Notes under the pieces: model-generated
What the model was told of the DNA's origin: nothing
The model's input: the letters and a program-made list of their open reading frames with translations, nothing else
The model's database searches: none
Translations under genes and position numbers: made by a program
Source: an uncultured bacterium
GTDB lineage: Bacteria > Bacillota > Clostridia > Lachnospirales > Lachnospiraceae
Direction of reading: 5' to 3'
NCBI GenBank assembly: GCA_947175015.1
Contig: CAMWLE010000002.1
Span: forward strand, 1-64,000
Length of the DNA stretch: 64,000 bases
In this document: positions 14,061-15,967 of the stretch, piece by piece
Layout: the number at the start of each line of letters is the position of its first letter
Numbering within the stretch: the stretch's first letter is position 1

Positions 14061-14351
14061 ATTATCTCTCCTTTTTGCTCCTTCTCGCTCCTTCTCACTT
14101 CTGCTAATCCAAAATCAATTATTTATGTATATATTCATTATGTAACATTGGGCCCAAAATAGCAAGTGCGTTCTTGTGCGTTTCAAAAGAGAATGAGAGG
14201 GTGCATTTGGCTCTTAATCATTGCATCGTCCTCCTTTCTTCCGTCCCGCCGCATAAATAAAGGCTTCTTTATAATCCGTTTGGATTAACCGTCCAATGAC
14301 AAAAAAAGTATTTCCTGCTATGATGAAAAAAATGAATCAAGGAGGCAACTT

Positions 14352-14717
14352 ATGAAGATTAGAACGGATTTTGTGACCAATTCCAGCAGCAGCAGCTTTA
14401 GCCTTGCGAGGAAGTTAGAGCTGACGGAGAAGCAGAAGGAAGCCATTATTCAATTTGTAGAGAGGACCATGTTCGGGGAGGATATTCTGACAGAGAAGGC
14501 GGAAGTTGATAGGTTTATGGAAGAAAATTATCTCTCGGAAGAATATAAGGATACTATCTGCAAGGCGCTTGACGAAGGAAAATACATATACCATGGTGTG
14601 GTTGATTTCGAGGAAGGTGACTATGGACTGGCGGAGCTGTACTGTGAACTTTGGAAGGCAATAGAAGAGGCAGACAGTGAAAATTTCACAGGCATTGATA
14701 CGGATCTGAGTTATTAA
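14352..14717 (+). CDS. small acidic protein with N-terminal MKIRTDFVTNSSSSSF motif; candidate partner or substrate of the downstream radical SAM/SPASM enzyme
   Basis: 121 aa; good RBS (aaggaggcaactt atg); 174 bp before the next gene on the same strand. Confidence 0.75.
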   Translation: MKIRTDFVTNSSSSSFSLARKLELTEKQKEAIIQFVERTMFGEDILTEKAEVDRFMEENYLSEEYKDTICKALDEGKYIYHGVVDFEEGDYGLAELYCELWKAIEEADSENFTGIDTDLSY

Positions 14718-14740
14718 AACAGTAATTGTTCGGCAATACC

Positions 14741-14781
14741 CGGAATGACATCCGGCTGTATAGCAGACAGAGGTCATTCCG
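14741..14781 (+). promoter_or_regulatory. intra-operonic hairpin between the NSSSSSF gene and the SPASM-enzyme gene
   Basis: cggaatgac (14741-14749) and gtcattccg (14773-14781) are perfect reverse complements; no strong T-run follows. Confidence 0.6.
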
Positions 14782-14890
14782 TTTGTATAGGATGGAAGTT
14801 GATGCAGTTTTTGTCAACAAATGGATTTGAATAGAAGATATTACTTCGGTGGTACAGGGTGGATGAAATAGAAGGAGGTATCGGGAGTAA

Positions 14891-15967
14891 ATGCGAAGAA
14901 GAGCAGATCCGGTAAATGGATTTATATCGGTATTTCATGAGAAAACTGGATTTTATTACAGGAGTAATGTGATAGAGCAGGGGCGAGACACAGGAAGAGA
15001 GCCTTTTATGGCACAGTTTCCGGAATTGCTTGATGTGGGGATTATGGGACATTGTATTCATGGTATGAGCGGGATGTGCATATCAGCCCGTGTACAGTGT
15101 TATCAAAATGGTCTCTATATTGCACAGCCCAATATGACCATGGAGGATTTTACATCCATTGTCAATCAGTGCAGAGGAAAAGTATACCAATTTGCTTTGG
15201 GGGGAAGAGGGGACCCGGATCAGCATGAATATTTTGAAGACATACTGAGGTTGTGCGTTGAAAATGAAATTGTACCCAATTTTACCTCTTCGGGATTTGG
15301 ATTTACAGAGAAAATTGCGCAGTTATGTAAAAAGTATTGTGGTGCGGTGGCTGTGAGCTGGTACCGCAGTCCCTATACATTGGACGCAATACGCATGCTC
15401 CTGGCAGCAGGGGTTAAGACAAATATTCATTATGTGCTGGGAAAACAGAGCATACAGGAAGCCATAGAGCATTTGGAGTGTGATGATTTTCCAAAGGGGG
15501 TGAATGCTGTCGTTTTTCTGCTGCATAAACCTGTAGGGTTGGGGGAAGGAGGGAATGTCCTTACCTGTGAAGATGAGAAGATCAGGCAATTTTTCGCACT
15601 CATAGATGGGAAAAAGCATTCTTTTAAGGTTGGGTTTGATTCTTGTACAGTTCCTGGACTGCTTCAATTTACAAATCATATTGATTTCAACAGCATTGAT
15701 ACCTGTGAAGGGGCAAGGTGGTCAGCCTATATTACACCGGATATGAAGATGCTGCCCTGCAGTTTTGACTGTGAGGACAGGAGATGGTGTGTGGATTTGA
15801 GGACGCACTCCATACAGGAAGCCTGGGAGAGCAATACGTTTTCTGCATTCAGGGACATTTTGAAACGGGCTTGTCCGGAGTGTGGGGACAGGGACCATTG
15901 TATGGGCGGCTGTCCCATCCGGCGGGAAGTAGTGCTGTGTAAGAAAAAGGCAGGAACATCATTCTAA
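14891..15967 (+). CDS. radical SAM/SPASM-like maturase with non-canonical N-terminal Cys spacing
   Basis: 358 aa; N-terminal GHC-X7-C-X6-C (GHCIHGMSGMCISARVQCYQ), FALGGRGDPDQHEYFEDIL, C-terminal C-X2-C-X5-C-X3-C (CPECGDRDHCMGGC). Confidence 0.75.
   Translation: MRRRADPVNGFISVFHEKTGFYYRSNVIEQGRDTGREPFMAQFPELLDVGIMGHCIHGMSGMCISARVQCYQNGLYIAQPNMTMEDFTSIVNQCRGKVYQFALGGRGDPDQHEYFEDILRLCVENEIVPNFTSSGFGFTEKIAQLCKKYCGAVAVSWYRSPYTLDAIRMLLAAGVKTNIHYVLGKQSIQEAIEHLECDDFPKGVNAVVFLLHKPVGLGEGGNVLTCEDEKIRQFFALIDGKKHSFKVGFDSCTVPGLLQFTNHIDFNSIDTCEGARWSAYITPDMKMLPCSFDCEDRRWCVDLRTHSIQEAWESNTFSAFRDILKRACPECGDRDHCMGGCPIRREVVLCKKKAGTSF

Follow-up and report, generated by a model that had tools for sequence, protein, structure and literature searches.

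The modification of encoded peptides by radical S-adenosylmethionine (SAM) enzymes is already known, and the maturases responsible usually act on one precursor family. SuiB (streptide cyclase), anSMEcpe (anaerobic sulfatase maturase), PqqE and SkfB, the closest described enzymes, share with the one considered here the fold, the SPASM cysteines and a genetically encoded substrate, putative in our case, beside the enzyme. In contrast to them, our enzyme, which is ~15% identical, shows an expanded CX7CX6C motif; its presumed substrates, for the most part folded and some 60-580 aa long, have only an N-terminal tag in common, and this tag contains neither a K-W pair nor a C/S-X-P-X-R motif. An anSME-type system would call for a sulfatase substrate bearing the latter motif, and no sulfatase family was detected among the scanned cargos, as we name the part of each protein beyond the tag. 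The typical layout of a RiPP, a short precursor with a leader and a protease-released core, is not met either: the tagged proteins have a median length of ~134 aa, a folded cargo domain is predicted for the one studied here, and no protease was observed among the recurrent neighbours.

The nearest published idea that we found is that of the VMAP ternary conflict systems, which include radical-SAM/SPASM modules with an FxSxx peptide (Kaur et al. 2020, PMC7159879). There too a radical-SAM/SPASM gene stands beside a short conserved motif of F and S in the setting of a conflict system; however, that motif lies in a C-terminal peptide and is accompanied by a metallopeptidase, whereas the present one is N-terminal, nearly invariant and borne by many cargos, so that position, partners and spread all differ. 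No set of C-terminal FxSxx, metallopeptidase and VMAP partner appeared among the recurrent neighbours of our loci. The system formed by tag and enzyme is undescribed in Pfam, NCBIfam, PHROGs and PADLOC, as well as in a literature search of open-licence PMC papers. PHROG 7293 (the enzyme) and PHROG 7397 (a tagged protein of phage RB43) are both listed with unknown function, and we found neither a link between them nor any description as tag or maturase. What is new is that many cargos share a tag, and that the cluster motif is expanded.

Results

The window, that is, the whole stretch of 64,000 nucleotides that was analysed, harbours a two-gene cassette in which the gene of a 121-aa tagged protein is followed, after a gap of 173 bases, by that of a 358-aa radical-SAM/SPASM enzyme, each preceded by a good ribosome-binding site (Table 1). 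The initial annotation, made from the letters alone, had noticed both genes on the same strand and a C-terminal SPASM signature in the second; the genes are indeed there, and the signature proved real (C328-X2-C331-X5-C337-X3-C341-X8-C350), with Pfam SPASM (E 2.9e-4) right at its curated cut-off and TIGR04085 (27.6 bits; cut-off 27) above it. For the 121-aa protein, whose tryptic N-terminal peptide is TDFVTNSSSSSFSLAR, scans of Pfam, NCBIfam and PADLOC gave no significant match.

Table 1. Coordinates of the features of the window cassette and of a related plasmid operon
Feature	Position	Strand	Remarks
Promoter-like site 5' of the tagged gene	14296..14324	+	weak consensus match; as frequent in shuffled sequence, no excess
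Shine-Dalgarno AGGAGG of the tagged gene	14340..14345	+	read from sequence
Tagged protein gene, 121 aa	14352..14717	+	cargo cluster 0 (chromosomal type)
N-terminal tag MKIRTDFVTNSSSSSF of the 121-aa protein	14352..14399	+	conservation over 204 distinct tags; predicted flexible
Inverted repeat between the two genes	14741..14781	none	18-nt arms, 83% complementary
Shine-Dalgarno AGGAGG of the enzyme gene	14873..14878	+	read from sequence
Enzyme gene, 358 aa, radical-SAM/SPASM	14891..15967	+	
Expanded radical-SAM cluster motif C55-X7-C63-X6-C70	15053..15100	+	
SPASM region, C272 to C350	15704..15940	+	
Plasmid four-gene SMEK-NACHT operon	L168 2553-7005; L170 2550-7005		

The canonical SAM-cluster motif CX3CX2C is absent from the window enzyme, a point that the initial annotation did not raise, and Pfam Radical_SAM did not match it, probably because the expanded motif stands in its place. 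The SPASM auxiliary-cluster pattern C..C..CX2CX5CX3C..C is satisfied by C272, C290, C328, C331, C337, C341 and C350. An AlphaFold model of the enzyme reached a mean pLDDT of 95.5 (98-sequence alignment), and its best PDB matches in Foldseek were SuiB (E 2.6e-11), anSMEcpe (E 6.5e-11), PqqE, the sactipeptide maturase 5why and SkfB, with a probability of 1.00 for SuiB, anSME and PqqE, as expected of a radical-SAM barrel fold. These five modify peptides or proteins; BtrN, which does not, was also in the top 20. Homologues 34-41% identical to the window enzyme have the CX3CX2C motif in its canonical form, and the ones that were scanned match PF04055 (Radical_SAM) at E 9.4e-14 (the 34%-identical one) and 3.3e-9; because of both features we assign the family to the radical-SAM enzymes. 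Judged by its homologues, the window clade is thus a radical-SAM family with insertions between the SAM-cluster ligands, SAM cleavage itself being inferred. A different assignment, with C63 and C70 as outer ligands and the middle cysteine lost, was ruled out, since the canonical and RB43 homologues show two insertions in CX3CX2C.

Across the family the SAM-cluster motif occurs as CX7CX6C, CX3CX2C (in Agrobacterium, Rhodobacter and environmental-phage homologues), C-X-C-X3-C-X3-C, CX5CX6C and, in RB43, CX7CX2C. All 58 members of the expanded-motif class retain C55, C63, C70 and the SPASM cysteines, and C55, C70, C252, C272, C290 and C331 are invariant in the 100 aligned enzymes. Environmental-phage enzymes mostly lack C328, C337, C341 and C350, as if one auxiliary cluster had been retained in that clade, an assignment inferred from the cysteines only. 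The tree comprises canonical members as well as the window enzyme, which belongs to a supported clade of 49 sequences, most of them from Bacillota, surrounded by phage sequences. This clade also includes Synergistota, Chloroflexota, Actinomycetota, Thermodesulfobacteriota and other bins, a mixture of phyla that suggests wide transfer as far as the tree can tell; several of its sequences come from metagenome bins, and single placements may be contamination. Two phage-borne enzymes (L121 6429-8786 and L124 6438-8771) contain an in-frame insert exactly at the conserved ALGG motif, with the intein features of Cys as first residue and HN then Cys at the end. A Coriobacteriales contig (L048 7388-8400) carries a second, broken copy of the enzyme on the opposite strand.

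Scans with the enzyme yielded 68 genome loci and 80 viral loci, most of which carry tagged proteins on the same strand. In the phylum, the enzyme was found in 10 of 398 genomes, all ten with the tag nearby, and the tag was seen in none of the 388 enzyme-negative genomes; agreement this close would arise by chance with a probability of 4e-20, a figure that assumes independent genomes and ignores the kinship among them. This is the co-occurrence that the initial annotation had put forward as a check of its proposal, and the outcome was strongly positive. A relaxed tag pattern matched 12 of the 398 genomes, namely the ten enzyme-positive ones and two others, whose translations, MKNNRRFMRNCT and MKLREVFMRNST, ruled them out as tags. 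Similarly, in a family draw of 200 genomes the enzyme was present in every genome with a true tag. The short pattern FV.NSSSSSF with loose serine codons produced chance matches in 6 of 200 genomes, which was overcome by lengthening the pattern and tying it to the start codon. Of the 143 fetched loci whose enzyme is intact, 122 carry the strict tag, all 222 tags lie on the strand of the enzyme, and four genomes in which the tag seemed to be missing at the enzyme locus do contain it at some place in the genome. Conversely, the enzyme was identified in 61 of 72 viral contigs recovered via the tag (20 of 21 among those >=100 kb); the 11 contigs without it are mostly fragments, one being of 122 kb. 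No strict tag was found at 9 of 24 well-flanked environmental-phage loci, at least two of which show relaxed forms. The pairing of tag and enzyme is not chance. Among the recurrent neighbours there is no third conserved cassette gene; they comprise an HTH-type regulator at 22 of 63 genome loci and, in environmental phages, conserved phage genes.

The consensus of the tag is MK-x-[RK]-x-D-F-V-T-N-S-S-S-x-S-[FY]. Among 204 distinct tags K2, N10, S11, S12, S13 and S15 are invariant and F/Y7, V8, T9 and F/Y16 almost so, conservation dropping past approximately residue 18. In the wider set of 354 tagged proteins S, T, A, C, V, E and H all occur at residue 14, and residue 15 also differs in a few members, which reduces the constrained core to [FY]-V-T-N-S-S-S. 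TCN and AGY codons are mixed at every serine position of the 204 tags, indicating selection on the protein. In the model of the window protein (89 relatives) the tag has no secondary structure and a pLDDT of ~48 over residues 1-10, next to a cargo folded with confidence; it looks like a free tail and is accordingly predicted to be flexible and to lie outside the folded cargo. Residue 4 is R in 188 of 189 tags accompanying expanded-motif enzymes and K in 38 of 39 accompanying CX3CX2C enzymes. Cargo clusters 0 and 1 pair with both enzyme classes and follow this rule without exception in the counted cases, so that the tag tracks the class of the enzyme and not the family of the cargo, although part of this correlation can be put down to linked genes being inherited together.

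Past residue 18, the 354 distinct tagged proteins fall into 52 cargo clusters (BLASTP, 1e-3) under a nearly invariant tag, which points to a general tag and not to one substrate; remote kinship between clusters remains possible, and three clusters are single short fragments. The initial annotation had imagined one small protein whose N-terminal run of five serines could be a site recognised or modified by the adjacent enzyme. The association of tag and enzyme and the constrained F-V-T-N-S-S-S core bear out part of this idea, but the fourth and fifth serines are replaceable and some 50 cargo clusters, instead of one substrate, bear the tag. The cargos had no convincing family in Pfam, and the predicted cargo fold had no match in the PDB below E 1. 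C-terminal ends are conserved within clusters and differ between them (DLSY, SHH, HMG, GRNG, ESHH); those in SHH, HMG and ESHH, for example in clusters 1, 9, 10 and 12, may bind metal or contact the tag. Two loci (L305 4673-6166 and L306 4318-5826) encode tagged proteins of ~480-500 aa with the variant SSSES, and in both genomes the gene of a ~315-aa protein lies 3' of the tagged gene.

The pairing spans several bacterial phyla and many large phages. Whereas chromosomal cassettes usually hold one tagged cargo, large phages have up to seven different ones per enzyme, and phages carry sets of small acidic tagged proteins. All 26 large phage contigs carry 1-7 tags, with few exceptions clustered near the enzyme, and in gut-type phage loci 1-7 tagged genes adjoin it, always on its strand. 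In the T4-like cultured coliphage RB43, two proteins, CCL97581 and CCL97586, open with MKIRSGFVSNSSSSSF, the tags falling exactly at annotated start codons, and their genes are 20-24 kb away from that of the enzyme. The enzyme was detected in 174 phage records and the two tagged proteins in 175 and 174, with nearly the same make-up of host genera; these records belong nearly all to the RB43 group. For the window enzyme the PHROG match is phrog_7293 (E 2.4e-19), while RB43 protein P0002 is phrog_7397, to whose first 19-20 residues other tagged proteins match. The second RB43 protein has the SHH end of cargo cluster 1 and a PHROG in common with one member of that cluster; a head-tail adaptor PHROG is matched by the cargo of one of the two RB43 proteins. 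The tagged protein starts with MK[LI]KMDFVSNSSSTSF on two plasmids, pAt of Agrobacterium and one of Rhodobacter, and an alphaproteobacterial plasmid enzyme, 34% identical to that of the window, lies beside a SMEK-NACHT gene. In the four-gene operon of these plasmids a SMEK-NACHT gene, whose product resembles Avs2, and the gene of a 121-aa protein come before those of a tagged protein of 131-132 aa and a canonical radical-SAM/SPASM enzyme.

Discussion

Our analysis leads us to propose, with a probability of roughly 0.7 and in the absence of biochemical data, that the two genes encode a maturase and its substrate, the enzyme binding the tag and oxidising or cross-linking the F-V-T-N-S-S-S core. 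The proposal builds on computed results, namely the genes, the fold, the co-occurrence, the independence of the tag from the cargo and its co-variation with the enzyme class. Once bound to the flexible N-terminal tag, the enzyme would cleave SAM and generate a 5'-deoxyadenosyl radical, which would abstract a hydrogen from a residue in the core; the electron would then be handed to an auxiliary Fe-S cluster, and the outcome might be a two-electron oxidation or a cross-link, as brought about by anSME, SuiB or PqqE. The tag would be portable, a single enzyme acting on the tags of different cargos. Contact between enzyme and tag, the placing of the modification in the tag, the kind of chemistry, SAM cleavage included, and any role of the cargos are inferred without experiment. 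Both the proteins nearest in fold and the conservation of the auxiliary-cluster cysteines favour oxidation or cross-linking, and the extreme constraint on the tag makes us favour it as the modified site rather than just a docking site.

The tag could nonetheless be no more than a recognition leader at which the enzyme docks in order to modify the cargo elsewhere, for instance at the conserved C-terminal ends. N-terminal leaders are usual among radical-SAM peptide maturases and the ends of the cargos are conserved within clusters; as these motifs differ from cluster to cluster, a phage enzyme with 5-7 cargos would need several unlike sites, and the core of the tag is under far stronger constraint than docking alone should call for, so we consider a mere leader unlikely. 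The phage sets of small acidic proteins and the head-tail adaptor match of one RB43 cargo would also suit a targeting or packaging signal, comparable to the capsid-targeting sequences of T4 internal proteins, with the enzyme acting elsewhere and being linked by chance or shared regulation. Against such a signal, whose likelihood we judge to be quite small, tag and enzyme are also paired on chromosomes and plasmids where their surroundings showed no virion genes, and the variants of the tag follow the enzyme class.

Two further explanations carry very little weight. The window enzyme, having neither CX3CX2C nor a Pfam Radical_SAM match, might have lost radical-SAM chemistry along with the canonical motif and only bind tagged proteins as a chaperone or inhibitor, which is hard to reconcile with cysteines kept throughout its class (C55, C63, C70 and those of SPASM in 58/58) and family (C55 and C70 in 100/100). 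Even less tenable, and already disfavoured, is that the shared start is a nucleotide signal for translation start, regulation or recombination: it is always found at a start codon, but N-S-S-S-S-S is coded in 167 different ways among 204 genes, with free mixing of TCN and AGY codons that no single silent change interconverts.

One may tentatively go further, at somewhat less than even odds, and regard the tag as a general, portable N-terminal modification tag: dozens of unrelated proteins would receive one and the same novel side-chain chemistry from a single expanded-motif radical enzyme, and large phages would arm whole groups of accessory proteins in this way to be used in their hosts. Conflict between phage and host is the most likely setting in the phages and in the SMEK-NACHT operons; the context of the latter suggests a defence role, which has not been shown, and makes the four-gene plasmid operon a candidate defence system.

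A single family of enzymes seems to work with a tag common to ~50 cargo clusters, several phyla and several phage groups, and the presence of canonical and expanded SAM-cluster motifs within this family renders the evolution of the motif testable. RB43 in E. coli offers an immediate experimental system. Should the tag prove to be modified, chemistry and biotechnology would gain a new type of protein modification, with a transferable tag already in place, and a large stock of unannotated phage genes would acquire a common theme.
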